Below, in pieces: positions 575-42,013 of a stretch of 42,013 nt of DNA. The first letter of the stretch is position 1, and each line of letters opens with the position of its first letter. Made by a program: the position numbers and the translations under genes. Origin of the DNA: Spirochaetae bacterium HGW-Spirochaetae-5 (lineage in GTDB: Bacteria; Spirochaetota; UBA4802; UBA5550); assembly GCA_002839285.1 (NCBI GenBank), contig PGXT01000003.1, positions 1 through 42,013 on the forward strand, read 5' to 3'. Under the pieces are notes generated by a model. That model did no database searches. It saw only the letters and a program-made list of their open reading frames with translations, and had not been told where the DNA came from.

Positions 575-1495
575 ATGATGATACCTATAAAAACAGCCTG
601 TCAGATTTCTAATCTTACCGACCGGACTATCAGGGACTGGATAACAGATGGTAAAATAATCGGCGGCAAAGATGATCTTACAGGTATTCTCCATGTAGAT
701 AAAGAATCGCTTCTAAAATCTCTTCCGACTTCAATCTGTTTTTATAACCAGAAAGGTGGCGTCGGCAAAACCACCATAAGTGTTATGATGGCCGATTACT
801 TTGATAAAAAAGGTGTTAAAACACTTTTGATTGATCTGGATCAGCAGGCCAACCTTTCACAATCATATTTTGATTATGACGACATTCGAGGTTCGAGCAC
901 TTTGTATAATTATCTTGAAGATAAAACCCCGCTTGCCAAGTGTATTAAAACTTATAATGATAATATAGATGTACTTCCTGCTGATATCCGCTTAAGCCGT
1001 AAAGATAATTATGATCTTGATGAACTGGACAGCATCAAAGCTGATTTTATTCCTATATTCAGAAAATATCAGATAGTAATAATTGACTGTCCCCCTTCTC
1101 TCTCTGCAATGTCTAAGTTCGGGCTTCTGCTTTCAAATTACGTTTTCATTCCGGTTATTCCTGAGCCGTATTCATTTGACGGTATGTTTGAAACTCTTAA
1201 TAACCTCAAGCGTATGACAAAGTTCTGCGCGGACTTTATCGATTACAGGGTTATCATTACAAACCATGAAATGCGTAAGCTCACATTACATGAAAATTAT
1301 GTGGATATGATAAAGAATGATAAGAAGATCCGCTCTGCTGAGCAGACAATCCCCAATTCGGTTGCTATGAAAGAACGGCCTCTGCATAAGTCGAATATTT
1401 TTGATATGTACGGAAATGATAAAGGTGTGAAAAAACTTGAAACACTTCTGGATGAGTTGTATAACGCTATTTATATTGAAAGGGGTAACAAATAA
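575..1495 (+). CDS. parA: ParA-type partition ATPase with N-terminal MerR-like helix-turn-helix
   Basis: This 306-residue protein is a plasmid segregation ATPase. Residues 1-50 form a MerR-like DNA-binding module ('DRTIRDWITDGKIIGG'). The ParA core follows, with a deviant Walker A KGGVGKTT at 60-67, the switch I region 'LLIDLDQQANLS' (about 84-95) and Walker B 'IVIIDCPPS' near 167-174. ParA proteins of this type bind DNA when loaded with ATP and move plasmid cargo through a ParB-like partner; those with an N-terminal DNA-binding domain often repress their own operon. Its TAA overlaps the ATG of the next gene (TAATG), so the two are probably translationally coupled. Two adjacent ATG codons could start it. 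The fused HTH resembles type Ia ParA in layout. Confidence 0.95.
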   Translation: MMIPIKTACQISNLTDRTIRDWITDGKIIGGKDDLTGILHVDKESLLKSLPTSICFYNQKGGVGKTTISVMMADYFDKKGVKTLLIDLDQQANLSQSYFDYDDIRGSSTLYNYLEDKTPLAKCIKTYNDNIDVLPADIRLSRKDNYDLDELDSIKADFIPIFRKYQIVIIDCPPSLSAMSKFGLLLSNYVFIPVIPEPYSFDGMFETLNNLKRMTKFCADFIDYRVIITNHEMRKLTLHENYVDMIKNDKKIRSAEQTIPNSVAMKERPLHKSNIFDMYGNDKGVKKLETLLDELYNAIYIERGNK

Positions 1496-2454
1496 TGGCT
1501 ATTAAGAAATTTAATAAAGACCAGCTCTCCAGGGGTAAATCAATTCTAAATCCTGATGATAATTTTAATCCCGACGATTTCACCTATGATGTAATAACTG
1601 AATTTGAGAACAATCCCCGTAAAGAAAACCTCCCCAAAGTAATAGAGGTTATAGAGAAGGATAGTAGTCTCCCGGTTATTCAAAAAGAGATTTTAATAAC
1701 CAGGCTTAAAGCGGATTTTGTAACACTATTCGGTTTTAATAATATTCCGGATGATTATAAGTCTCTCAAAAATGAAGCAAAGTTTCTGTCCGATATTACT
1801 CAGTACAGTTTTGCATCTCTCGCAGTCAGACTTAAAAAAATAAGAGATGATGAATTATATAAGGAGGATAACTATCCCGATTTTAAGAGTTTTATAGACA
1901 AAGAACTTTCAATCAATAGAACTACCGCATATAATTACATTGATCTGGTTACTATTTTTGGTGTTCAAACGTTTGAACACGTTACCGAACCTTCAAAGCT
2001 GATCTCTGCATTACCGCTTCTTAAATCGGCAAATACCAATAAGGACATCCCTCTTGCCAAAATAAAAAAAGATATTATTAAACAATCTCAAACAATGTCA
2101 GCCAGAGAATTAAATGAACATATAAAAGGGTTAAAAGTTGAATATGGTTTCAGGAAATCAGACTCTGAAAAACCTGCAGAGAAGTCAACTGGAGTAATTA
2201 ACCAGTTAGATGTTTCTAAAAATGAAGCATCTTGGTGGACACCTGAAATGGAAGCCGATAAGAAAAAAAAGGATAAGCTTAAATCAACAATAACAGTAAA
2301 GTTTCAACACAACATAGATCTTTACGAGGGTTATATTAAGCAGTGTCGCCGTTCAAAAAAAGAAAAAGAACAAAACGAAGGGCGGATAATGGCTTATCAG
2401 GTAGCAATTTCAGATTTAAAAGAATTGCTGAAAAAAATATTGAAAGATATATAA
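1495..2454 (+). CDS. ParB-like partner of ParA (non-canonical, HTH-containing)
   Basis: This 319-residue protein is fused by start/stop overlap to parA. It lacks the usual ParB N-terminal CTPase motif. Residues about 125-150 contain a helix-turn-helix-like stretch ('INRTTAYNYIDLV'), recalling the PF49/PF50-type partners of spirochaete plasmids. The C-terminal ~70 residues are very rich in Lys and Glu and likely form a coiled coil for dimerisation. Position and composition argue that it is the centromere-binding protein of the partition system. Its family is not certain from reading alone, and the centromere has not been identified. Confidence 0.7.
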   Translation: MAIKKFNKDQLSRGKSILNPDDNFNPDDFTYDVITEFENNPRKENLPKVIEVIEKDSSLPVIQKEILITRLKADFVTLFGFNNIPDDYKSLKNEAKFLSDITQYSFASLAVRLKKIRDDELYKEDNYPDFKSFIDKELSINRTTAYNYIDLVTIFGVQTFEHVTEPSKLISALPLLKSANTNKDIPLAKIKKDIIKQSQTMSARELNEHIKGLKVEYGFRKSDSEKPAEKSTGVINQLDVSKNEASWWTPEMEADKKKKDKLKSTITVKFQHNIDLYEGYIKQCRRSKKEKEQNEGRIMAYQVAISDLKELLKKILKDI

Positions 2455-2518: not shown

Positions 2519-3085
2519 CTACTCCATCTCTACACAAACATATTCAATCTCTGCAAACAGCTTCTCAATCTCAATAAAAGTTTCATTCAGCTGTAGCTGC
2601 AGCTGATCAACTTTTTCTTGCCGGTTGGCAGCTTCAATCGGCTCTTCAATTGACTTCACAATCTGCTTCATCTTCCAAATCTGATCCGTCATCAGATACT
2701 TTCTTTCAATCAGTTTTTCAATACTATATCCCAGGCTTTCAACCTTCCGGACCGCCTTCCGCCTTTCAGCTTTCTTCTTATCGGCAATATCTGTCATATC
2801 ATAAAACTGGTTTAACGTTACAGAAGCCGATACATAAGTCTCCGTGTCCGGTGAATTCACCTGGTCATAAGGTGATCTTCTTGAAACACTCACCTCCGGT
2901 AAAAACCGTAGAGAATCTTTCCATCGGTATGTATCTGTATCATTGATACGCCTTTTTGATTCTACCAGAGTCTTTTTTAGATCCCGCATCTCATTTTCTT
3001 TATTATTTTTACTTTCTTCGGCTGAAAGTCCGATACTTTGAATAAAAATTATTGCTATTATAAAAGTGTTTATTATTTTATTCAT
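2519..3085 (-). CDS. Exported coiled-coil protein, short TolC-like
   Basis: This 188-residue protein starts with a clear signal peptide (hydrophobic residues 4-20, 'SIGLSA-EES' cleavage region). A segment 'WKDSLRFLPEVSVSRRSPYD' leads to 'SASVTLNQFYDM' and then long heptad-rich helices to the end. This order (short beta-strand-like segment, then long helices) resembles one half of a TolC outer-membrane channel repeat, but the protein is less than half the usual TolC length and no second repeat is present. It could be a periplasmic or outer-membrane accessory protein rather than a channel. It is transcribed divergently from the small gene at 3111. Its role on the plasmid is unknown. Confidence 0.7.
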   Translation of the reverse strand: MNKIINTFIIAIIFIQSIGLSAEESKNNKENEMRDLKKTLVESKRRINDTDTYRWKDSLRFLPEVSVSRRSPYDQVNSPDTETYVSASVTLNQFYDMTDIADKKKAERRKAVRKVESLGYSIEKLIERKYLMTDQIWKMKQIVKSIEEPIEAANRQEKVDQLQLQLNETFIEIEKLFAEIEYVCVEME

Positions 3086-3110
3086 AATATTTCCTCAAAG
3101 GGGTTCATGG

Positions 3111-3260
3111 ATGAAGCCAGTCGTATTGCTCGCAATGGTTAAGGATTTGCAGATTTATATCAAAGACATCAAAGACCTTGATAAAAATAATCTCGTTGAG
3201 ATTAACAAAAAACTCATTAAAATATCGTCAGAAGTGAATGAAAATCTCGAAAAAATTTAG
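3111..3260 (+). CDS. Small hypothetical protein (49 aa)
   Basis: An AAAGGGG ribosome binding site about 6-13 bases upstream favours the ATG at 3111 over an in-frame start at 3066, which would lie inside the divergent gene. The product is a small helical, Lys/Glu/Asn-rich protein ('KDLQIYIKDIKDLDKNN...'). It precedes the recombinase-ATPase gene by about 200 bp on the same strand and could be a small regulator or assembly partner, but no family is recognised. Confidence 0.5.
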   Translation: MKPVVLLAMVKDLQIYIKDIKDLDKNNLVEINKKLIKISSEVNENLEKI

Positions 3261-3285
3261 ATCTTTTTTTGCTCTTTTCATCCCG

Positions 3286-3326
3286 TTTTGTTCGAAAAAG
3301 CTTTGAACAAAATCGCCCTTTTGTTC
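3286..3326. repeat. Three copies of TTTTGTTC, two as a perfect inverted repeat
   Basis: TTTTGTTC occurs at 3286-3293, inverted as GAACAAAA at 3305-3312, and again directly at 3319-3326. The set lies about 140 bp upstream of the recombinase-ATPase gene. Phased copies of an 8-mer suit an operator or a recombinase/initiator binding array. Confidence 0.55.
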
Positions 3327-3465
3327 CAAAACCGCCCGGAATGATGTATGATGCAGTCATTATCGCATCGTGTTTATCGTGATTCCGGTCTAATAATGGT
3401 TTAGTTTTGTGTTTAAAATTGATGGTTTTTTATCGTAAATAATGTGCTAAAATGAATGAAATTGA

Positions 3466-4878
3466 ATGAAGAATAAAACTCAAAAAATCCCGCTCTTTCT
3501 TTCTCAGAAAGAAGTTGATGATCTGATACGTGGCGTGCGGAAAGAGAGGCATAAACTCGGCCTTTATCTGATGTCATACGGTGGGCTTCGTGTGTCCGAA
3601 ATGTGTAATTTGAAAGTATCTGATGTTCACCTGCAACGGAATTTTATGATCATTACAGGCAAAGGGAATAAGCAGAGAGTCGTCCCGATAAATGCCACTC
3701 TTCAGAAGATGCTTGAATCATATTTCAGTAAATACAGTTATAAATTAAATCCCGATTCCCTGCTTCTTGGTGGTGCCCGTAATTCCTGGCATTATGTTAT
3801 AAAGAAATATTCCGAACAGAATCTCGGTAGAAGAGATGTTCACTGTCACACCCTCCGGCACTCATTCGCAACCGGACTTTATGAAAAGGATGTACCTATA
3901 GAGAGAATCTCCCAGATCCTCGGTCACTCCAAACTTGATACAACTCTTATATATTCAAGGATCTCTATTGAGCAGAAGAAAGATGCGGTAATGACCCTTG
4001 ATGGTCCTCGTGGCCGCTTATTCACATTTGCCCGGTCATTCAGAAAAAAAACAGATATAACAGTAAAAAGCTCCGGCTCTCTAATCGGAAGAGAGAAGGA
4101 ATCCGAACTTATAAACAATTATATCAAAAAGAAAATTTCCGTGATCCTCTCCGGAGGCAAGGGAAGCGGTAAATCAGCGATCCTCCGCCACATCCCCGAT
4201 GCGGTTTTTATAGATGAATATAAAAAGAAACAGACCCTTGTGAAAATAATTCTATCTGCTTCAGCTGGTTCTGATGGTACGCTTTTATCAGCAGATGATA
4301 AGGTTTATAAAGAGGCAGAGAAGCAGTTTAAAAAGCTATCAATTGATGAGTTGCTTAATGAGCTTAAGAACTTTAATAAAACCATAATCTTTGACGATAT
4401 AACAGGGCTTTCAAAAACCGATAGATCAACAATATCAAAGCTTTCTGAATTGACTCCAGTTCTTGCGGCAAGTTCCAGAACTGCGGATAAAAAACTGTTT
4501 AAAACCTTTGTTGAAATTAAACCGCTTAAAAGACATTTCACCAGGTTAATTCTCTCAGAAATGGTACAGATAACTGATCCCCGGAAGAAAGAATTAATGA
4601 TAGATGATGTACTGCATCAGGCAGGGGATAATCTGAAAGAAGCCGAATACATCTCCCGTCAGATGACAATGGGTAAAACCAGTGAAGAGGTAATCACTGA
4701 CGAAAGGATCAGCAACCAGGAATCAATCGCCCCTTTCCTTCTCATTCTGGTTCTATTCTTCGCAGCATATGTTCTCAAGTCTTATGCTTCGGCAATGGTA
4801 GCTTTAAGTTATGCCCTTCTGGTTGTGTTCAGAATGGTATTTTACAAATACATCTTTATGCCCGCGAGTAAGAAGTGA
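3466..4878 (+). CDS. Tyrosine recombinase catalytic domain fused to a P-loop ATPase with C-terminal membrane helices
   Basis: This 470-residue protein joins three parts. Residues about 10-175 are a complete tyrosine recombinase catalytic domain: Arg42 (GLRVSE), Lys66/69 (GKGNK), His128-x-x-Arg131 (HTLR), His154 (LGHS) and nucleophile Tyr163. The N-terminal core-binding domain is absent; the protein begins directly at the catalytic fold. Residues about 205-400 are a P-loop ATPase with Walker A GGKGSGKS (230-237) and a Walker B-like 'TIIFDDI'. Residues about 421-463 form one or two membrane helices followed by a basic tail. Such a protein would tether DNA strand exchange, or at least DNA binding, to the membrane under ATP control. 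The next gene overlaps it by 4 bp (GTGA). The ribosome binding site is weak. The fusion is seen directly; its function is inference. Confidence 0.88.
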   Translation: MKNKTQKIPLFLSQKEVDDLIRGVRKERHKLGLYLMSYGGLRVSEMCNLKVSDVHLQRNFMIITGKGNKQRVVPINATLQKMLESYFSKYSYKLNPDSLLLGGARNSWHYVIKKYSEQNLGRRDVHCHTLRHSFATGLYEKDVPIERISQILGHSKLDTTLIYSRISIEQKKDAVMTLDGPRGRLFTFARSFRKKTDITVKSSGSLIGREKESELINNYIKKKISVILSGGKGSGKSAILRHIPDAVFIDEYKKKQTLVKIILSASAGSDGTLLSADDKVYKEAEKQFKKLSIDELLNELKNFNKTIIFDDITGLSKTDRSTISKLSELTPVLAASSRTADKKLFKTFVEIKPLKRHFTRLILSEMVQITDPRKKELMIDDVLHQAGDNLKEAEYISRQMTMGKTSEEVITDERISNQESIAPFLLILVLFFAAYVLKSYASAMVALSYALLVVFRMVFYKYIFMPASKK

Positions 4879-6146
4879 CAGCAACGACACATTATGCTTT
4901 TTCATATCTTTTATGTGCTGCAGCTGGTATGGAGCCGGCCACTGCCCTCACAGCTTCCCTGTTCTCCCTGCTCCCGGATATAGATCATCCGGAGAGTACA
5001 ATCGGCCGTATATTCTCCCCTTTATCAAAATATATTCAGCGGAAATATGGCCACAGAACAGTTACACATTCAATATTCGCAATCATGTTTATCTCAGCTG
5101 TTCTTCTCCCCCTGCTTCTTATTCCCAGGCTTTTACAGTGGGGCAGTCCATTCTGGACTGGTTTGTATGCAGCTGCTCTTCTTGCGTTTTCCAGTCATAT
5201 ATTTATAGATCTTTTTAATAAATCCGGTGTTCGTATCTTTTCACCATTTTCACAGAAGGAATATATCTCCTTCAGAACTCCATCCCTGCGAATACTTGTT
5301 TCTTCATGGCAGGAATATATTCTTCTGTTTGTAATTGTATTCTTCGCTTTTACTGTTACAGGTGAGGGCTTCTCGATCCACAAGGCTGTCCGTTCTGTCG
5401 GTAAAATGATCTATAAGAATTATGATAATGCGGTTAAAGATTATCAGGAGAACAGCGCTTATTTCTGTATGGCTCATATAGATTATTTTGACAATATAGA
5501 ACGGCGTATTATTATCGTAGATCTTCCGGTTCTCAATATGTATCCGGAATCCGGTGTGTTCCTCCGGAACAATGAAAGACTTGTAATCGGTAAAGAGAAT
5601 ATCAATGAAATTACAGTTGAGAAAACAGATAAACAGGTAATAACAAAAAGGATCTCCGGTAGTGATCCGGCTCTTCTTAAAAGTATTCCAAATGGATCGT
5701 ATATCTCCGGAACAATAGACGTTAAAAATTATTTTCCGGAACTTAAATCAAACAGCTTTATAACAGTAGACCGCAGATCAGACGGTGCAGGTTTTATATT
5801 AAAATGCGCTGCTCCCTGGGAGATTTCCCGCATTCTAAATCTTCATAATGAAATTGGTGTTGAGATAGAGAAGCTTAAAAAGAAGCTCTGCTCATACCAG
5901 ATAGATCAGCTGAGGGGTGAAGAATCAGAATTAAAAAAAAGGATTGAAACGTTACGGAAGAAAGGGCTATATAATAATTATGGTCGTATATCAAAGCTTA
6001 CTGCGGAGATGAAGAAGATTCAGTCGAAGATTAGCTCTCTTGAAATGAAAGAGAGCATGGGCGGTGATGCGGAGATACAGGAGAAGATTAATCTGCTAAC
6101 TAATGGCTTCCATTTTTACTTCGATCTTGTAGTATTTGAGATGTAG
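4875..6146 (+). CDS. YdjM/DUF457-like membrane-bound metal-dependent hydrolase with long C-terminal extension
   Basis: This 423-residue protein starts at a GTG that overlaps the previous stop codon (GTGA), so it is translationally coupled to the recombinase-ATPase. The first ~185 residues match the YdjM/DUF457 membrane family: 'THYAF', 'DIDHPES', 'GHRTVTHS' and several membrane helices. The His/Asp motifs are the expected metal ligands. The remaining ~240 residues, absent from a minimal YdjM protein, are soluble. They contain a beta-rich domain ('SGSDPALLKSIPNGSYISGTI'...) and a Lys/Glu coiled coil ('LRGEESELKKRIETLRKKG'). The pairing with a membrane-tethered recombinase suggests one membrane complex. 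The substrate is unknown. Confidence 0.8.
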   Translation: MTATTHYAFSYLLCAAAGMEPATALTASLFSLLPDIDHPESTIGRIFSPLSKYIQRKYGHRTVTHSIFAIMFISAVLLPLLLIPRLLQWGSPFWTGLYAAALLAFSSHIFIDLFNKSGVRIFSPFSQKEYISFRTPSLRILVSSWQEYILLFVIVFFAFTVTGEGFSIHKAVRSVGKMIYKNYDNAVKDYQENSAYFCMAHIDYFDNIERRIIIVDLPVLNMYPESGVFLRNNERLVIGKENINEITVEKTDKQVITKRISGSDPALLKSIPNGSYISGTIDVKNYFPELKSNSFITVDRRSDGAGFILKCAAPWEISRILNLHNEIGVEIEKLKKKLCSYQIDQLRGEESELKKRIETLRKKGLYNNYGRISKLTAEMKKIQSKISSLEMKESMGGDAEIQEKINLLTNGFHFYFDLVVFEM

Positions 6147-6234
6147 CTAAATAAAGAATAGACAAAATAATTCTTAATGTGTAAAGATCTTCATGTATAA
6201 CAGCCTAATAGATATAAATAAAGAGAGAAAGACA

Positions 6235-6957
6235 ATGTTGGCTAATGTTGAGTTACGATATAAAAAGGAAATATCAGGCCCTGAATCGGATTTTATAAAT
6301 AGTTTTTTATCTAACTATAAACAGGAATATTCAGATGATAAAAAAACAATGACCATATTTTCAGAACCATTTGTCGGCTCCGGATTTCCTGATTTAGTAA
6401 TGGTCAGATGGGATAATGAAAAACCAAAAAAATGGAATGAAGAAAGAAATAATATTAGCAATATTGATCTTAAAATAATTCATCACATGATGGTTAATCC
6501 GGGAATTTATTCTATTGAAAATCTGAAGTTGCAATTAGGTTATTCTGAAAAAATCATATCCGGTTCAGTTCAAAGAATGAAAGATGCTGGCTTGATTAGA
6601 GAGGATAAAAAAGGATTAATCAGAATCGGAAATAAGAAAGAATTATTTTTTATTCAATCAATAATTGCAATTGAAGCAAAGATGAAAAATTGGAAGAAGG
6701 CATTTATTCAGGCTGAAGCTAATCAATGGTTTTCTTCTGAAAGTTATGTGTTATTACCGGATTTTATAATTAATGAAGCTATCATTAATCATGCAAATTT
6801 ATCCACTGCTGGTCTGATCTCTTTTGGGGATGATGGTATTAAAATATTAAAAAAACCTGAAAAAAGAAAAATGCCTGTTTCTTTTTGTTCCTGGATTTTT
6901 AATGAAAATATCGGCCGTTCATTATGGGGTGATGGGGATAATTATGGATTTATCTGA
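6235..6957 (+). CDS. PD-(D/E)XK nuclease-like protein with inserted winged helix (first gene of three-gene operon)
   Basis: From the ATG at 6235 the product has 240 residues; an in-frame ATG at 6193 would add 14 but lacks a ribosome binding site. 'GSGFPDLVMV' supplies Asp53 and 'IIAIEAKMKNW' supplies Glu147-x-Lys149. A following 'QAEANQW' fits the Gln helix, so the active-site set of a PD-(D/E)XK nuclease is complete. Between the two halves (about 75-130) lies a winged-helix DNA-binding domain ('YSEKIISGSVQRMKDAGLIRED'). It may be a DNA nuclease, or a regulator built on a nuclease fold. It overlaps the kinase gene by 14 bp. Other three-gene defence operons use similar nuclease effectors, but this family is not one that I recognise by name. 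Confidence 0.75.
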   Translation: MLANVELRYKKEISGPESDFINSFLSNYKQEYSDDKKTMTIFSEPFVGSGFPDLVMVRWDNEKPKKWNEERNNISNIDLKIIHHMMVNPGIYSIENLKLQLGYSEKIISGSVQRMKDAGLIREDKKGLIRIGNKKELFFIQSIIAIEAKMKNWKKAFIQAEANQWFSSESYVLLPDFIINEAIINHANLSTAGLISFGDDGIKILKKPEKRKMPVSFCSWIFNENIGRSLWGDGDNYGFI

Positions 6958-7798
6958 GATACAGAAAAATTTTCCGCATCTTAAAGATATAACCCCTCTT
7001 GCAAAAGGCGGGTATAAAACGGTATTTAGAGCAAAGAGTGATCTTCATGGTGATGTTGTTCTCAAAATTATTAATCCAGGTAATGATAAAGATGAAATAA
7101 CCGAACGTATAAAACGTGAAGTTAGAGCTGCTGAAGTAATTGAATCAGTTCACATCCCACAAATTTTTGAAAGCGGTATGTTAAATGTTGGTAAAGAAGA
7201 ATTGTGGATTATAGAACAATGGATAGATGGAAAAACATTGCGGGAACATATGCAATCAGGCCGGAAATATTCAATATCAGAGATCTACAATTTTTTAGAG
7301 ATAATGCTTCAGATAATAATTCAGGCTGAAATAAAAAAAATTGTTCATCGTGATATTAAACCTGAAAATATAATAATTGATACTACTGATAAGATATGGC
7401 TTATAGATTTTGGTATTTCACGCCATCTTGATTTATCATCTCTCACGAATAGTAATATTCCATTCGCTCCCTGCACAATCGGTTATGCCTCTGCGGAACA
7501 GTTTAGAAACCGGAAACGTGAAATTGATTCAAGAACAGATCTTTTTGCAATCGGCGTTGTTGCGTATGAAATGATAATTGGCGAAAATTTCTATATCAAA
7601 GATGCCAGAGATGCATTTCAAGTCATACGGAAAATAGAAAGAGATCATCTTCCGGTTATTAAAATTGCTGGCGATTCGCAATATCTCATGGCAAATTTTA
7701 TTCAAACAATAGGTGATAACCGGTTCTCAAGACGCCCGTCTTCAGCTTTCGAAGCATATGAAATATTAAAAACAATAAAATCAACTCTGGTTTTTTGA
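6944..7798 (+). CDS. Hanks-type serine/threonine protein kinase
   Basis: This 285-residue kinase consists almost only of the kinase domain. The ATG at 6944 is chosen because GGGGAT lies just upstream; an ORF start at 6902 would extend into the previous gene. A Gly-rich loop variant 'AKGGYKTVF' is followed by Lys41 (VVLK), Glu59, the catalytic loop HRDIKPEN (135-142) and DFG (155-157), so it should be active. 'TIGYASAEQF' replaces the usual APE motif region. There is no transmembrane segment and no PASTA or other sensor domain, so it is cytosolic. It sits between a nuclease-like gene and a TIM-barrel gene, which suggests that it controls one of them by phosphorylation. Stand-alone kinases in such settings occur in phage-defence operons. 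Confidence 0.92.
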   Translation: MDLSEIQKNFPHLKDITPLAKGGYKTVFRAKSDLHGDVVLKIINPGNDKDEITERIKREVRAAEVIESVHIPQIFESGMLNVGKEELWIIEQWIDGKTLREHMQSGRKYSISEIYNFLEIMLQIIIQAEIKKIVHRDIKPENIIIDTTDKIWLIDFGISRHLDLSSLTNSNIPFAPCTIGYASAEQFRNRKREIDSRTDLFAIGVVAYEMIIGENFYIKDARDAFQVIRKIERDHLPVIKIAGDSQYLMANFIQTIGDNRFSRRPSSAFEAYEILKTIKSTLVF

Positions 7799-7806
7799 GG
7801 TAATTT

Positions 7807-9012
7807 ATGGAACTCTATCTACAAATGGGACATGGCATGATGGATCATGCTAAAACGTTGATTTCAAAATGGGGTGGCGGAACTTGTATATTAAGTCCCA
7901 GAGATATGAAGATTGAACAGATAGAACGCTTCAGCCAAGAAATACATAATTTAAATGGAAAAATTGCAATAGACCCTCAATTCTATCAGCCGTATTCGGA
8001 TCACGATAAACTTACAAATCATTCGTTCTGGCCTGAAAGTTTTGAAACCAGTAATTTCTTTTCAGGTTCGGGTATTAGTGAAATGATAAATGATCTTTTG
8101 AATAATTATAATTTAAAAACACTGTCCGATATATTTATTATCCCGGGCAGATTTACTGACATTATAGATGACGATTGGAAGAAATATAACGATATTCTGA
8201 TAACTGAAGTATTAAAAAAAAATATCAGCACGCCTGTTTATATGACACTAAGTCTTTCATCGGAAGTTATATATTCCGAAGAAATGGTTCATGAACTCCT
8301 TGAACATATTGAAGATTGGAATGTTACCGGTTATTATATTGTTGCGCAACATCCTAAGGATAATTATTTGATAGCAGATGCTTCATGGCTTGCAGGTCTT
8401 ATTGATTTATGTGCCGGTATTAAACTTCTCAATAAAAAAATAATCGTCGGTTATGCAAATCAGCAGCAGCTGTATTTAGCCCTTGCAAAAGTTGATGCAA
8501 TAGCTACAGGTACTTGGCTGAATGTAAGGGCATTTTCTCTTGATAAATTTGAGAAGGCAGAAGAAGATCAGCAGAGCAGACGCTCCACCTGGTATTATTG
8601 TCCACAGTCATTGTCTGAGTATCAAATTCCTTTTATGGATATTGCAAAACGTTCCGGTATAATAGATAATTTAAAAGCTGAATCATTATTTGATTCCAGT
8701 TATGCGGATATCCTTTTCACCGGTGCTCAGCCAACCTCTGTAGAGTTTTCCGAAAGAGAGGCATTTAGACATTATTTGCAATGTCTTCATATTCAGACAG
8801 ATTTAACTCATAAAAATACTTTTGATGAAACTTACTTATATCTAACGCAAATGTTTGATGCTGCGGGTAAGCTTGCATCTTATTTTAAATCACGAGGTGT
8901 TCGTGCAAAGTATAAGGATTTTAGTGATGTTTATGAGGATACTATCTCCGCGCTGGATCTCTTTAAAACAACTCGAGGTATGATTTTTAAGCATAAATGG
9001 AATAGTTTGTGA
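7807..9012 (+). CDS. TIM-barrel protein, possibly tRNA-guanine-transglycosylase/DpdA-like (third gene of operon)
   Basis: This 401-residue protein starts 8 bp after the kinase stop, with GAGG upstream. The sequence alternates strands and helices through about residue 260, as in a TIM barrel. 'GGGTCILSPRDM', 'GKIAIDPQFYQP', 'DIFIIPGRF' and 'AIATGTWLNVRAF' sit where the barrel strands of transglycosylases would lie. The overall pattern recalls tRNA-guanine transglycosylase-like enzymes, including the DNA-modifying DpdA group. The classical DSGGFQ motif and the four-ligand zinc site are not present. A nucleobase-exchange role is therefore a hypothesis. Operon structure ties it to the kinase and the nuclease-like protein. 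Confidence 0.5.
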   Translation: MELYLQMGHGMMDHAKTLISKWGGGTCILSPRDMKIEQIERFSQEIHNLNGKIAIDPQFYQPYSDHDKLTNHSFWPESFETSNFFSGSGISEMINDLLNNYNLKTLSDIFIIPGRFTDIIDDDWKKYNDILITEVLKKNISTPVYMTLSLSSEVIYSEEMVHELLEHIEDWNVTGYYIVAQHPKDNYLIADASWLAGLIDLCAGIKLLNKKIIVGYANQQQLYLALAKVDAIATGTWLNVRAFSLDKFEKAEEDQQSRRSTWYYCPQSLSEYQIPFMDIAKRSGIIDNLKAESLFDSSYADILFTGAQPTSVEFSEREAFRHYLQCLHIQTDLTHKNTFDETYLYLTQMFDAAGKLASYFKSRGVRAKYKDFSDVYEDTISALDLFKTTRGMIFKHKWNSL

Positions 9013-9150: not shown

Positions 9151-9540
9151 AAAATAACACAGTTCTACGCATAACAGCAAATTATAAAATATACACTACA
9201 TTTAAAGACAGCTATTTTTTTTATTCTTTGGACCTTCCAGAATATCACTCCCAGTGTAAATTGCATAAAAGTCTTATGAAAAATCTCAAATTATTCACTC
9301 ATGAACTGGGCAAAGAATTTTTTTTATTGTAAAAATACTTGAAAAACTATTTTTTAAAAAAAATTAAAAATAGAACAATGTGTTTTTTCATGATTCTTTA
9401 ACTTTTTTAAATAGTTTCTTCTTTAAAAGCACTTAAAAAATAGAGTCATTGTGACTATTCCAGGTTATATATTATCAATGAGACATAAAAAAAGTGGTTG
9501 ATTAATAATAAAGCGTATTTTATAGTAAAAATTAATAAAG

Positions 9541-9562
9541 AAAGCTCTCTTTTGGAGACTTT
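9541..9562 (+). terminator. Imperfect hairpin followed by T-rich tract
   Basis: AAAG-C-TCTC pairs with GAGA-C-TTT (bulged C on each side) and is followed by TTTCTTATTTTT. It looks like a rho-independent terminator for plus-strand transcripts, more than 500 bp downstream of the kinase operon, so it may end a small RNA instead. Confidence 0.4.
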
Positions 9563-9622
9563 TTCTTATTTTTAAGGGAATTATATAGAGTATGTGAATA
9601 TGATCAAGTCTTAAAAATACAA

Positions 9623-9647
9623 AACCTGAAGCTGGACACTTCAGGTT
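9623..9647. repeat. Hairpin AACCTGAAG / CTTCAGGTT
   Basis: A perfect 9-bp stem with a 7-base loop. No T-run follows on the plus strand. It stands 8 bp before the larger compound inverted repeat at 9656. Confidence 0.55.
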
Positions 9648-9655
9648 AGTATTAC

Positions 9656-9736
9656 GGGTGTTAGCCCGAATTGACAGTCAAATTGTTAATTAGTATATGC
9701 TTCTAAAGCACTACTTCTGTCAATTCGAAAACACCC
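9656..9736. repeat. Compound long inverted repeat (81 bp)
   Basis: The outer arms GGGTGTT (9656-9662) and AACACCC (9730-9736) and the inner arms CGAATTGACAG (9667-9677) and CTGTCAATTCG (9717-9727) are perfect complements: 18 paired bases in a nested arrangement. A small central stem GCTT-CTA-AAGC lies within the loop. It can extrude as a cruciform or fold as RNA. It is a candidate recombination or replication site, or a structured RNA. Confidence 0.65.
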
Positions 9737-9816
9737 AAAATTGTTAAAAATTTATAAAAAAATGGGTGTCAAACTATGCAAAAATTTATCTCCAACAATC
9801 GGTCATATGATCATGT

Positions 9817-9840
9817 AAGGGCGAATAATCATTCGCCCTT
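9817..9840. terminator. Strong 10-bp hairpin upstream of the rep-like gene
   Basis: AAGGGCGAAT (9817-9826) and ATTCGCCCTT (9831-9840) form a perfect stem with a 4-base loop, followed by TATTTA. It looks like a bidirectional terminator or attenuator in the leader of the next gene and may control initiator expression. Confidence 0.6.
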
Positions 9841-9892
9841 TATTTACATAACACCAACCTTCGGCATCAAGTAAGTACAAGGCAAACTTACA

Positions 9893-10771
9893 GTGATCCG
9901 CATCAGTCGTGGAATCATCAAGCTCGCCCGCGGTCAGGGGAGTAATCTTGAGGACTATCGATACTACTGTATTGCACGTCACCACTATGCTCTCCGCTCA
10001 GGGATCTTCTCGCTTGATGAATTCTGCGATCTTTTGCATTCAGAATACGAATATGCCTCACTGCACCGTAAACCGGGCAACGACCGGACACGTTTCAAGC
10101 AGCGTCTTGTTAAAATCATTCAAAAATCAATGCTCTTTGCAGAGCTTCTTGACGGCCGCTACAAGGCCAATTCCGAAAAAGGCTTACTCTCCAGGTATAA
10201 CAAGGGCCATAATAAGTCTATGTGGTACGTATTACCTGATAAAAAAATATTAACATCAAAAAAGGAGTTCTTTGACTTCTGCGTAGGCTCACTACTTGCG
10301 GGGGGCAGATTCCAGGCCAATAAAAACATTGCAGAGCAGTGCGGTGTCTCGGTCAGGAGGATTCAGTTTGCCACATCCCGTAACAGCAAAAACAAAACAT
10401 TTATCAAACGTTACAATTTTTTAGAGGATTTCTCCGGCACTTCAAAAGATGTCGAGAAATTTCGCGCGATTCTTTTCAATGCGCATGGTATTTCATCACC
10501 CCTCCCCCGGAAGACTAAAAAGGGTTGGGTGGTACGGCTTAACGCTCCAAATACTTACAGGGCTAACTTGTTGTGCGGGGTTAAAGGGGACAGGGCACAA
10601 CCACTGGTGGTGAATGTAAGTAAAAAAGAGGAGAGCTGGTTTATACCTGCATTTGAAACGGGTAAGTCGAAATTAGTCTCGGACTATTCTGATGAAAAAC
10701 GCTGGATTTTCAATGACAATGTATACAGCACAAACCGCTATATACAGGACAACAGCAAGTTCATGTCATAA
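9893..10771 (+). CDS. Candidate plasmid replication initiator (HTH protein)
   Basis: This 292-residue basic protein has no ATG near its start. Reading begins after an in-frame stop at 9872-9874, and GTG at 9893 is the first usable start, without a good ribosome binding site. Residues about 142-162 form a helix-turn-helix ('NIAEQCGVSVRRIQFATS'). The N-terminal half is rich in Arg, Lys and aromatics ('RTRFKQRLVKIIQKS'), and the C-terminal part is beta-like. I cannot name a family. The link to replication rests on DNA-binding character, its position after an AT-rich, palindrome-rich region and the absence of any other rep gene on the circle. A transcription regulator is the main alternative. Confidence 0.5.
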   Translation: MIRISRGIIKLARGQGSNLEDYRYYCIARHHYALRSGIFSLDEFCDLLHSEYEYASLHRKPGNDRTRFKQRLVKIIQKSMLFAELLDGRYKANSEKGLLSRYNKGHNKSMWYVLPDKKILTSKKEFFDFCVGSLLAGGRFQANKNIAEQCGVSVRRIQFATSRNSKNKTFIKRYNFLEDFSGTSKDVEKFRAILFNAHGISSPLPRKTKKGWVVRLNAPNTYRANLLCGVKGDRAQPLVVNVSKKEESWFIPAFETGKSKLVSDYSDEKRWIFNDNVYSTNRYIQDNSKFMS

Positions 10772-37401: not shown

Positions 37402-38002
37402 AAAATGTTATCCTTCAAATAAAAATCTTTCATGGTACACCGCACCCTCTCGCTCAACTCACAGAGTAACAGACTTACTGCCCCCACGCACTTCAGCGAT
37501 AAGTGGTATTATGTCGCCACGCCCTGAATATTTACATTCGATCAAACTTATACTAAGCAGATACTTCTTGCCGTTCTTATACTCATCGTACCAGGGCGGG
37601 GTGCCCTCAACTCCAGCCCCCGGCCACCCTTTTCGACGTCCTTGTCTCAAAGGCCGCTCGCTCTTCCTCCGCTCGCTGTGTCCGGGTATACCAGTTGAAA
37701 AGAAAACTTTTTTCTTACTCCCCGTGCAACGAATCCCGTTTCGCCCGCATCAACCACATCCACAACTCCTCCTAGCTGACGAACTCAATGTAAGTTCCTG
37801 CGGCTGCTGCGACCTCCACTTTTGATTATTTACTATACTTAATACAGCTTGAAACAGTCGTGCCTGGTGACTTTCAGCTTTTTATGTTACTTATTCGCGG
37901 TGTCCCTTATACACTTAATATTTTACACTTTTATCAATTTTGATTGCATTAAATCCTTCTGAATTCTAATGATAATCAGTATTAAGGCTTAAGGATAACA
38001 TA
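37402..38002. other. GC-richer stretch without an intact gene
   Basis: About 440 bp (37430-37830) differ from the rest by their high C content on the plus strand and dense runs such as CCAGCCCCCGGCC. The minus strand keeps a 96-codon frame open (37459-37749) with no ATG. The last 150 bp before uppP are AT-rich again and carry its AAGGA ribosome binding site. The block could be a repeat-family member, a decayed gene or a structured RNA. Confidence 0.5.
37459..37749 (-). other. Open frame without start codon in the GC-rich block
   Basis: After a TGA at 37752-37750, 96 codons are open and read protein-like: '...KKVFFSTGIPGH...', 'GAGVEGTPPWYDEYKNGKKY' and 'LIECKYSGRGDIIPLIAEVR', ending in TGA. 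The only usual start is a TTG at 37650 (63 codons) without a ribosome binding site. It may be part of a longer gene broken by mutation, or a chance frame within a non-coding repeat. Confidence 0.3.
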
Positions 38003-38812: not shown

Positions 38813-39475
38813 TTGAGAACGTTCTTTCATTAATAAGTGCCAATCACATTGCCTTGCTACTCAAAATCTAATTTAAAAGATCATATTGAATACATACGGT
38901 CAAATCCGTTCTTTTAGCATCTGATAATTACGTTAACAACTTTACGCCTTTGTCACGCCCCTTGCGGAAAAGAGCAAGAGTCGTGCCAATCAGCAGAGCT
39001 GAACCGGCTCCACCCTTCTCCCTTTTATTTTATATTATCAGTTTATAAAACCGAATATCCCCCGCGTCCCCCGCCACCCTTTGAGTAAGGTAAATTTTAA
39101 CCTCCAGGGCGGCACATATACTGTCCGGTAACTCACACTCCTAAGTTAATCATCAGTGAAACCCCGCCGACCGGCTACCAGCTTCCGGAAAAGACCCCTC
39201 CAGCTGCAAGCCTCTCCGGGCAAACATTCCCCATATTGCAAAGCAACTTCCCCTATGCCCTCCGTCGGCCGCTCCCCGTTATAACCGCCACCCTTACGGT
39301 TAAAATTTTCTTTAAACCCCATCCGCGGGTACAGCTTAAAATTTAAAGGTCTGATAAAAACATATAGTAAAATACCCCGCCAGCTCCCTTCATTGGTAGA
39401 GGGGTCCGGCGGGGTATTAATCTAAAGAATATCAGAGATTGTATACTCATTGTCTGGTTGTGTTCCTGCAGTGAA
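38813..39475. other. Intergenic region with GC-rich, possibly structured sequence
   Basis: This stretch of 660 bp has no convincing gene. 38953-38990 contains nested arms (CACG-CTTGC ... GCAAG-CGTG) that could fold as RNA. 39050-39330 is rich in C and CC-GG stacks, unlike the coding DNA around it. The terminator of the ribbon-helix-helix gene occupies 39371-39418. The rest is unexplained. Confidence 0.45.
39371..39418 (-). terminator. Rho-independent terminator of the ribbon-helix-helix gene
   Basis: AATACCCCGCC (39371-39381) and GGCGGGGTATT (39408-39418) form a perfect 11-bp stem; read on the minus strand it is followed by TTTTAC. It lies 58 bp downstream of the minus-strand repressor gene. 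Confidence 0.75.
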
Positions 39476-39652
39476 TTAAAACTCCGGGATAATCTTTTTG
39501 TGTACGCAATGCAGTGCTGCTCTCCGCATAAAATCGTTGATGGTGATCTCCTGGTCGATGCAGAATTTTGCTATAAGTTTATGCTCCTCCGGTGTCAGTG
39601 TAACGGTCGGTCTTTTAAGTCCTTCATATTTATTATCAATGGTTTTTGTCAT
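39476..39652 (-). CDS. Ribbon-helix-helix (CopG/Arc-like) repressor
   Basis: The ATG at 39652 follows a strong GAGGAGAAC and gives 58 residues; a longer frame from 39697 would lack a ribosome binding site. The pattern 'RPTVTLTPEEHKLIAKFCIDQEITINDFMRRAA' is a beta-strand followed by two helices, as in CopG/ParG-type dimeric repressors. Such proteins control plasmid copy number, partition or neighbouring toxin genes. It is divergent from the DUF6573-like gene, with tandem 8-bp repeats between the two promoters as a likely operator. Confidence 0.85.
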   Translation of the reverse strand: MTKTIDNKYEGLKRPTVTLTPEEHKLIAKFCIDQEITINDFMRRAALHCVHKKIIPEF

Positions 39653-39690
39653 GTTCTCCTCTTCCGGTGACTTTCTTTTCCGATTGTGCA

Positions 39691-39719
39691 ATAACACAGA
39701 GTCTTATAATAAAAGTCAA
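39691..39719 (-). promoter_or_regulatory. Promoter of the ribbon-helix-helix gene
   Basis: Read on the minus strand, TTGACT (39719-39714) and TGTTAT (39696-39691) are separated by 17 bp. The start codon follows about 38 bases later. The operator repeats lie just upstream of the -35 box. Confidence 0.6.
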
Positions 39720-39726
39720 CTTAACT

Positions 39727-39742
39727 TTATAACGTTATAACG
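39727..39742. promoter_or_regulatory. Tandem TTATAACG repeats, operator for the repressor
   Basis: Two directly repeated octamers TTATAACG form overlapping palindromes (TATAACGTTATA and ACGTTATAACGT). Ribbon-helix-helix dimers bind such tandem half-sites. The site is exactly between the -35 boxes of the two divergent promoters, so one binding event could control both. Confidence 0.6.
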
Positions 39743-39752
39743 TGAAAATTTA

Positions 39753-39781
39753 TTGACAGAAGATAATACTATATATATGTT
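39753..39781 (+). promoter_or_regulatory. Promoter of the DUF6573-like gene
   Basis: TTGACA (39753-39758) is followed after 17 bp by TATGTT (39776-39781). The transcript would start about 20 bases before the GGAGG ribosome binding site. Confidence 0.65.
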
Positions 39782-39811
39782 AAGTAAAAATTCGACGGTA
39801 TGGAGGCCACT

Positions 39812-40210
39812 ATGAATAATCCTTTTCCAGAACAAGCAAACGAGTTTCATGTAATTCACACCTACACAAGAAAACAGGCAATCAATGATGGTGTACTGGT
39901 GGATGTCTCAGAAACAGCAAAGGAGGCTGGTATTAATTTTCCGGTAGCTGTTACCTCTGCGGTCTGGGGCCTGTATATTGTGCCGCCGGTGGAACTTGAA
40001 AGCTTCGGACAGTCAGTATCTGGGCGTCTCTGGGATCTTCTCTGGATGTTCCGGTTGCAGGCTCTTAAAACCAACTCCTCCCTTTTGTTCTATTCCTGTA
40101 TCTTTTTAAATAAATATGAAAAACGGGAAGAGGTTAAGTTTAAAGCTCTCTGCGGTCCGGGGGATAATTGTGAACCGGTAATTACAATAATGCTTCCCGA
40201 TGAAGATTAA
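39812..40210 (+). CDS. DUF6573-type plasmid protein
   Basis: The ATG at 39812 has GGAGG five bases upstream and is preferred over the ATG at 39800, whose own codons form that ribosome binding site. The 132-residue protein shows the DUF6573 pattern: 'VIHTYTRKQAINDGVLVDVSETAKEAG', 'FPVAVTSAVWGLYIVP', a conserved 'RLWDLLWM' helix and the tail 'KALCGPGDNCEPVITIMLPDED'. The family is widespread on plasmids and has no assigned function. It is divergently paired with the ribbon-helix-helix repressor. Confidence 0.85.
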   Translation: MNNPFPEQANEFHVIHTYTRKQAINDGVLVDVSETAKEAGINFPVAVTSAVWGLYIVPPVELESFGQSVSGRLWDLLWMFRLQALKTNSSLLFYSCIFLNKYEKREEVKFKALCGPGDNCEPVITIMLPDED

Positions 40211-40219
40211 AATTCAGCG

Positions 40220-40242
40220 GAGCCGCCCGGTCCGGGCGGCTC
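40220..40242. terminator. GC-rich terminator after the DUF6573-like gene
   Basis: GAGCCGCCCGG and CCGGGCGGCTC are perfect complements (11 bp, minimal loop), followed by TTTCTGATTTTT. It probably ends the plus-strand gene and may also stop the minus-strand toxin-antitoxin operon. Confidence 0.85.
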
Positions 40243-40371
40243 TTTCTGATTTTTATGAAATAAAACTGACTGTGTAGTCGGTGAGGCGTTAAAAAGTGCT
40301 TTTATTCTGCTCAGGATCGCTCAGATTCAATTTTAATGTAATCGCTAGGGGTTCAGGGTGGTATATGAAAA

Positions 40372-40554
40372 TTAATCTTTATCGGTGCTTTTTTTATCAG
40401 GTGCCTGAATCTCCTGCAGCAGCTTTTTGATCTCTTTCAATTTTTCAATATCATCCTGATTCAAATCCCTGTCACCGCTGATAGCTTTTGAAATAATACT
40501 TATCAGTAGACCCTTGCTCCAGTTATCAAGTTTCAGACCGCTCTCATTTGCCAT
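40372..40554 (-). CDS. Small helical protein, third gene of the toxin-antitoxin operon
   Basis: This 60-residue protein starts 24 bp after the antitoxin gene, with AAAGGA upstream. It is a helical, charged protein ('GLKLDNWSKGLLISIISKAISGDRDLNQDDIEKLKEIKKLL') with no recognised family. Three-gene HigBA-type operons carry a chaperone as third gene; this one is too short for that. It could be an independent regulator. Confidence 0.6.
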   Translation of the reverse strand: MANESGLKLDNWSKGLLISIISKAISGDRDLNQDDIEKLKEIKKLLQEIQAPDKKSTDKD

Positions 40555-41235: not shown

Positions 41236-42013
41236 TCAATCTTCGCAGTTAAGCGAAGCCAGATAGCCTTGCGTAATCGAAACGCTCCTGTGTCCAAGAT
41301 AACGCTGTGTCGAAATAATATTCCTCTCATTTTCATAGTGTTTTACTGCAGCATAATGTCTAATATCATGGAGGCTGTAAACGGTTTCAATCTTCCCCTC
41401 TGTATATAATCTTTTGCAGAATCTTTCAAATCCCTTCTGGATCGAATTAACCTTCAGCTCTCTAAATGGCTTAGATTTATCAAAACCAAGCTTAAGAAGA
41501 AGATCAGCTGTCTCTTCTGAAAATTTTCCTTTAACCAGACTCCCTTTGCTCTCAGCCTTAAATCTTCCGGTCTTATCAATGGTGAAGGAGGGGAGGGCTC
41601 CGCACCTTAATCCATGATTTTTAATAACCGATATTACAGCTATAAGAACTCTTGCCTGTTTCTTTTTTCCTGCAGAGCCTTTCCCCTCAGCATTAAGCTC
41701 TTCATAAAGATTCTGATTTATTATTTCAAGCTCTCTGTCCCCTGGAACATCTCCTGTATCTTTGGTTTCAAACGGGCGGGGAGGGCGGCGGCATCCCTTA
41801 AAGTAGTTCTTTGAAATAATGTCATGACGTTCAAGAAAAGAGAAAAAACTCGACACCCCGGCGATCCTCTCTCTTATGCTGTTATTCATGGAGTACTGTT
41901 TTTCTGTATATTTCACATAGTCATCAATATCAATTGAATTAAGATTAAACAGGTTTAAGCCTTTAAGCTCCAGCCAGTCAAAGAAGATCTGAAGGCTCTT
42001 ACCATATGTCTCG
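41236..42013 (-). CDS. Tyrosine recombinase/integrase, C-terminal catalytic part (gene crosses the circle junction)
   Basis: These are residues 100-335 of the integrase that begins at 297; positions 41947-42013 are the redundant overlap. The full catalytic set is visible: the first Arg in 'GLRCGAL', a beta-hairpin Lys near 'SKGSLVKGK', HxxR in 'HDIRHYAAV', the second His in 'YLGHRS' and the Tyr nucleophile in 'TQGYLAS'. Length and domain order are typical of phage/plasmid integrases and XerC/D-like enzymes. It lies beside the toxin-antitoxin operon on the same strand, about 65 bp downstream in position but upstream in reading. XerCD-like dimer resolution or chromosomal integration are both possible; the sequence does not decide between them. 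Confidence 0.93.
   Translation of the reverse strand, partial: ETYGKSLQIFFDWLELKGLNLFNLNSIDIDDYVKYTEKQYSMNNSIRERIAGVSSFFSFLERHDIISKNYFKGCRRPPRPFETKDTGDVPGDRELEIINQNLYEELNAEGKGSAGKKKQARVLIAVISVIKNHGLRCGALPSFTIDKTGRFKAESKGSLVKGKFSEETADLLLKLGFDKSKPFRELKVNSIQKGFERFCKRLYTEGKIETVYSLHDIRHYAAVKHYENERNIISTQRYLGHRSVSITQGYLASLNCED
41947..42013. repeat. Terminal overlap, right copy (circle junction)
   Basis: This is an exact copy of positions 1-67. It should be counted once when the molecule is circularised. Confidence 0.95.

Follow-up and report, generated by a model that had tools for sequence, protein, structure and literature searches.

A plasmid-borne spirochaetal gene joining a tyrosine recombinase domain to an NTPase and a predicted membrane hairpin, with a candidate target site upstream

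The locus and its plasmid

The window, the whole stretch of DNA analysed here (42,013 nucleotides), is an entire contig whose ends (1-67 and 41947-42013) overlap exactly over 67 bp, and the 353-codon open frame of a second tyrosine recombinase, additional to the one considered below, runs across the contig junction. Because the ends overlap and this frame reads through the junction, the window most likely represents one whole circular plasmid, 41,946 bp long. The junction-spanning recombinase (41236-42013, minus strand, continuing past base 67) is of an ordinary kind, with a core-binding-like N-terminus, and looks catalytically complete.

The gene of interest encodes a tyrosine recombinase catalytic domain, a P-loop NTPase and a predicted membrane hairpin in one chain. 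The list of open reading frames and the translation place it exactly in the interval given in Table 1, uninterrupted from its ATG start. Full-length homologues occur at four other loci, one on a second contig of the same genome (C112, 93% identity) and the others in three genomes of the same family (G016, 78%; G005, 66%; G006, 39%). Gene order is the same at the 93-66% homologues. The small divergent gene precedes the fusion at the three loci whose flank is complete, and its 188-aa product has no family match above cut-off and no PDB match. The YdjM-like gene comes next after the fusion in four of the five members, and in the window its start overlaps the fusion stop by 4 nt.

Table 1. Features in and around the fusion gene, in coordinates of the window
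Feature	Position	Strand	Evidence and remarks
ParA partition ATPase	575..1495	+	PF13614 3.7e-37; phrog_164 5.1e-46
ParB-like/borfam49-like partition protein	1495..2454	+	NF033725 2.4e-6, below cut-off
Small 188-aa protein, divergent, apparent signal peptide	2519..3085	-	conserved at C112 and G005
49-aa ORF upstream of the repeat site	3111..3260	+	alignment, four loci; inner ATG
Third arm, direct repeat CCGTTTTGTTCGAAAA	3283..3298	+	33 bp upstream of CCCTTTTGTTCCAAAA (3316-3331)
dif-like site, arms 11-6-11, TTTGAACAAAA-TCGCCC-TTTTGTTCCAA	3302..3329	+	repeat analysis; same place in C112 and G016
Recombinase-NTPase-membrane hairpin fusion, 470 aa	3466..4878	+	single ORF, family matches, homologues
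Xer-type tyrosine recombinase catalytic domain, residues 4-173	3475..3984	+	Pfam and NCBIfam matches; R42, K66, H128, R131, H154, Y163
STAND/AAA_16-like P-loop NTPase, residues about 201-415	4066..4710	+	Walker A K236, Walker B DD310-311, SSR338
Two predicted membrane helices, residues about 419-464	4720..4857	+	hydropathy
YdjM-like membrane protein, likely coiled-coil C-terminus	4875..6146	+	PF04307 1.7e-25

Elsewhere on the plasmid, a winged-helix-like protein, a Ser/Thr kinase (PADLOC PD-T4-6, 7.9e-39) and a 401-aa protein that matches no family stand in a row at 6193-9012, a possible defence cassette. Segments at 9341-10474, 37438-37882 and 38942-40420, all outside the fusion block, are 83-90% identical to the C112 contig; what the two contigs share includes an unassigned 292-aa ORF (9893-10771) and a DUF6573 gene, and is perhaps plasmid backbone. 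The C112 contig also bears ParA and a DUF6573-like gene, and in G005 a DUF6573-like gene adjoins the fusion copy, the family match being confirmed for the window gene and the other two assigned by resemblance. Between 16235 and 34687 lie genes that, judged by sequence alone, are chromosome-like, encoding proteins resembling apolipoprotein N-acyltransferase, signal peptidase II and cytochrome c biogenesis factors, together with a P-type metal ATPase and an ArsR-type regulator. The host genome is a 4.7-Mb draft in 309 contigs with 3.4% estimated contamination, so the window and C112 plasmids may not share one cell.

The fusion protein and its family

The recombinase half is recognised by Pfam Phage_integrase over residues 11-166 (2.3e-29) and by NCBIfam XerA, whose model positions 89-261 of 263 align to residues 4-173 (1.9e-40, yet under its 220-bit cut-off); the Xer scores in general fall below equivalog cut-offs. 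FimB/FimE-type NF007370 also matches, at 2e-7. Since XerA positions 1-88 are unmatched, the N-terminal core-binding half is absent, and of the core-binding and catalytic domains that mark the Xer subgroup only the catalytic part is matched. The active site also includes Lys66, which sits on the beta-hairpin and is the sixth of the classical catalytic residues, beside the five conserved arginine, histidine and tyrosine residues, and thus has the R-K-H-R-H set and tyrosine nucleophile of the superfamily. In the NTPase half, which covers about 205-345 on the narrower of two delimitations, the P-loop GGKGSGKSA holds Lys236 and a Walker-B-like IIFDD follows at 310-311, giving the Walker A and hhhhDD Walker B pair typical of STAND/AAA_16 proteins. 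The family matches are to AAA_16, nSTAND3 and ATPase_2 (archaeal-ATPase type); AAA_16 lies under cut-off in the window protein (8.3e-5), and two homologues reach the curated threshold, C112 with 32.6 of 32.6 bits and G006 with 33.1. GxxGxGK(S/T) and the DD pair are retained in all five members, in G005 as GxxGCGKS. Hydropathy predicts helices at about 419-440 and 441-464 (two peaks, maximum 2.26, 19-residue windows), and hence a membrane location; this part is 82-91% identical to the window protein among the intact members.

These results uphold most of the first-pass annotation, which had read the gene as a recombinase with Arg42, His128, Arg131, His154 and Tyr163 in place and no core-binding domain, followed by a Walker-type ATPase and C-terminal membrane helices. 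Family matches and hydropathy agree with that order and with each of its parts. A plasmid location, with ParA and ParB-like genes nearby, is supported as well. A frameshift or misassembly joining two genes, which it had named as a danger, is ruled out by the full-length homologues at the four other loci, and a decaying gene by dN/dS values of 0.02-0.12 between the window and C112 copies.

Domain by domain, dN/dS between these two copies is 0.02 for the recombinase, 0.08 for the NTPase and 0.04 for the membrane part, which indicates that strong purifying selection is acting on every domain. On sequence evidence, then, the fusion is a genuine, conserved gene family. All five recombinase domains group together in a single clade (99/99) in a tree sampled locally, from the same order and viral contigs, where the host Xer and related proteins make up a separate supported group to which the fusion does not belong. 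In a phylum survey, strong matches came from 5 of 46 genomes, all within the same order, and in one of the five the match was a 98-aa fragment; weaker ones were other P-loop proteins aligned chiefly over the nucleotide-binding part. Searches of 72,556 records of plasmids, 50,697 of phages and of viral contigs gave no match to the NTPase-membrane part, and a scan of genome contigs returned just one short, unrelated integrase match. A spirochaete-type host is supported by the confinement of homologues to one order and by the borfam49-like ParB.

The upstream repeats and the loss of the active site in one member

A composite repeat lies between the conserved 49-aa ORF and the fusion gene, directly upstream of the latter. 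Two TTTTGTT arms stand 33 bp apart at all four catalytically intact loci; an inverted arm lies between these direct arms, and together with the right arm it makes up the 11-6-11 half, which has the geometry of dif. Such 11-bp arms about a 6-bp centre occur in the window, C112 and G016, the C112 site being a perfect 12-6-12 palindrome. In G005 the direct arms, the right arm and the spacing are kept, both direct arms are altered alike (TTTTGTTG), and the inverted (left) arm is not conserved. Shuffled sequences reached the palindrome score in 0 of 2000 trials for C112, 6 of 2000 for the window and 97 of 2000 for G016, which is weak alone. The 6-bp centres vary (TCGCCC, TTGCCC, TCTCCA, GAGCCC) and the right arm is retained, as expected of recombination sites.

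No further exact copy of the third arm was found elsewhere within the window, and across the 4.7-Mb genome the composite site is limited to the two copies of the gene, on C238 and C112. A search of the genome for a canonical chromosomal dif found none clearly, control patterns matching equally often. We regard the repeat site as a candidate DNA target of the fusion.

All catalytic residues are invariant in four of the five members (window, C112, G016 and G005) and lost in G006, where K66T, H128Y, H154Q and Y163G leave only Arg42 and Arg131. The G006 gene is nevertheless an open 465-aa frame that retains Phage_integrase similarity (66 bits), the NTPase and the hairpin. The upstream repeat site was looked for at this locus and is absent. 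The downstream YdjM gene is missing as well, and the neighbours are Wzz-like and sugar-transferase-like genes, named by sequence reading, of an exopolysaccharide-type locus. The joint loss of active site and repeat site suggests that the site is linked to catalysis, in this one case, which equally indicates that the NTPase and membrane anchor can persist without it. With the active site gone from one member, the family is not strictly one of recombinases.

Possible functions and known relatives

We tentatively propose a model, to which we would give somewhat less than an even chance, where a plasmid-borne, membrane-anchored and NTP-switched recombinase acts at its own adjacent site, probably resolving multimers. 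The catalytic domain would bind and act at the upstream repeats, a dif-like pair with one accessory arm. The STAND-like NTPase, which the C-terminal hairpin would anchor in the inner membrane, would replace both the core-binding clamp and an FtsK-type activator. NTP-driven oligomerisation would gather four recombinase domains, permitting strand exchange, and plasmid multimers would be resolved at the membrane. The YdjM-like protein, co-transcribed in this scheme, may pass an envelope signal to the switch. We infer support for the recombinase reading from the intact active site at a dN/dS of 0.02, the likely circular plasmid and the adjacent site. Of the two roles put forward in the first-pass annotation, dimer resolution or DNA translocation, the former is plausible because the dif-like site lies directly upstream; the latter is not supported, since the NTPase matches STAND, AAA_16 and archaeal ATPases and not FtsK or HerA. 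Against the recombinase reading, the need for a second resolvase is not obvious, because the plasmid carries another complete tyrosine recombinase and the host encodes both its own canonical Xer (L004) and FtsK gamma; the upstream repeats could be an operator; and in G006 the NTPase and membrane part persist without catalysis.

The last two points belong to the main rival, which sees the protein as a DNA-binding regulator tethered to the membrane or as an anchor for the plasmid. The recombinase fold would serve chiefly to bind the repeats, and the protein would control its own operon or hold the plasmid at the membrane, with the NTPase as switch and catalysis secondary. Direct repeats 33 bp apart, about three helical turns, upstream of a gene do resemble an operator, and G006 has dispensed with four catalytic residues while keeping its integrase similarity, NTPase and hairpin. 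We nonetheless think this rather unlikely, given the invariant catalytic residues of the other four members. There the recombinase has diverged less than the NTPase (71.9% against 59.1% identity between window and G005), an order reversed in G006 (34.8% against 39.6%), which is what a constraint imposed by catalysis on the intact proteins would produce.

A reading of the block at 2519-6146 as a mobile element that its own recombinase transfers seems a good deal less probable. The block is common to two otherwise largely different plasmid contigs, and 3' fragments of the YdjM gene lie at several G005 contig ends. However, similarity between the window and C112 ends with the outer genes, at 2523 and 6142, the repeat site is internal to the block rather than terminal, and a search around the block found no conserved transposon outer ends. 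One further YdjM-coiled-coil protein, in G005 (L102, 829-2421, minus strand), is apparently in frame with a guanylate-cyclase-like N-terminal piece; the recombinase-NTPase gene is absent nearby.

An anti-phage or anti-plasmid STAND-type defence protein, its recombinase domain serving as DNA-cutting effector, is very unlikely. The order of effector then STAND NTPase would suit it, as would weak PADLOC matches in the NTPase (DpdH and PDC-S01) and a best PDB profile match to Avs4 (E 0.0019), but the PADLOC matches are confined to the P-loop region, family profile scans of the fusion members matched no C-terminal sensor repeats, and a candidate cognate repeat site adjoins the gene. Least probable is a reading in which a DNA-translocating motor and its recombinase, in effect FtsK and Xer, share one polypeptide. 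The anchor, ATPase and Xer-type domain recall such an arrangement by analogy only; no member scanned matched the FtsK, HerA or VirD4 families, including FtsK_SpoIIIE-type motors in Pfam and NCBIfam, the matches being to AAA_16, nSTAND3 and ATPase_2 instead.

Returning to the recombinase model, it is tempting to speculate, though we hold it doubtful, that a membrane-anchored NTPase switch replaced the clamp, giving single-protein, FtsK-independent, membrane-only plasmid resolution, and that one lineage later domesticated the protein as a dead, membrane-bound DNA-binding switch. Tyrosine recombinases normally require a core-binding domain, and those of Xer systems also depend on a separate membrane motor that controls them. 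If true, the merging of catalysis, NTP switch and anchor would be another way to confine recombination in space and time. One gene and one site of ~50 bp would form the whole candidate system, and the decayed G006 member would place enzyme and possible regulator in one natural series.

The catalytic fold, NTPase class and site geometry are of known kinds; the fusion, with the clamp missing and a hairpin added, turned up in none of the collections or papers searched. The portion of a tyrosine recombinase survey consulted here (PMC8138268) describes simple members as a core-binding plus a catalytic domain, and fusions to an NTPase or a membrane part are not mentioned there. The literature, as far as it was covered, yielded no protein with these domains in this order, and the order was absent from all other collections searched.

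With the Xer proteins (XerA, XerC, XerD and XerH) the fusion shares its catalytic domain, catalytic residues and, at three of the loci, a dif-like 11-6-11 arrangement of arms, but it lacks their core-binding domain, bears an NTPase and hairpin, is plasmid-borne and stands in a clade apart from the host Xer. The FtsK-XerCD/dif system is alike by analogy, as a membrane-linked ATPase controlling an Xer-type recombinase, whereas the fusion is one chain with a C-terminal hairpin and a STAND-like NTPase instead of an FtsK-type motor. STAND/AAA_16 NTPases share the P-loop, the hhhhDD Walker B and an SSR motif past the next predicted strand; the fusion differs in its N-terminal recombinase and in having a membrane hairpin where sensor repeats stand. 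FimB/FimE-type short invertases, of about 200 aa, likewise have a catalytic domain without a separate core-binding domain, and they are unfused and act on an invertible promoter. The layout of the locus recalls TnpI/IRS of Tn4430, where a tyrosine recombinase gene adjoins a site that combines an inverted core pair with an additional direct arm; TnpI itself carries neither an NTPase nor a membrane part, and the IRS has four arms where the site described here has three.
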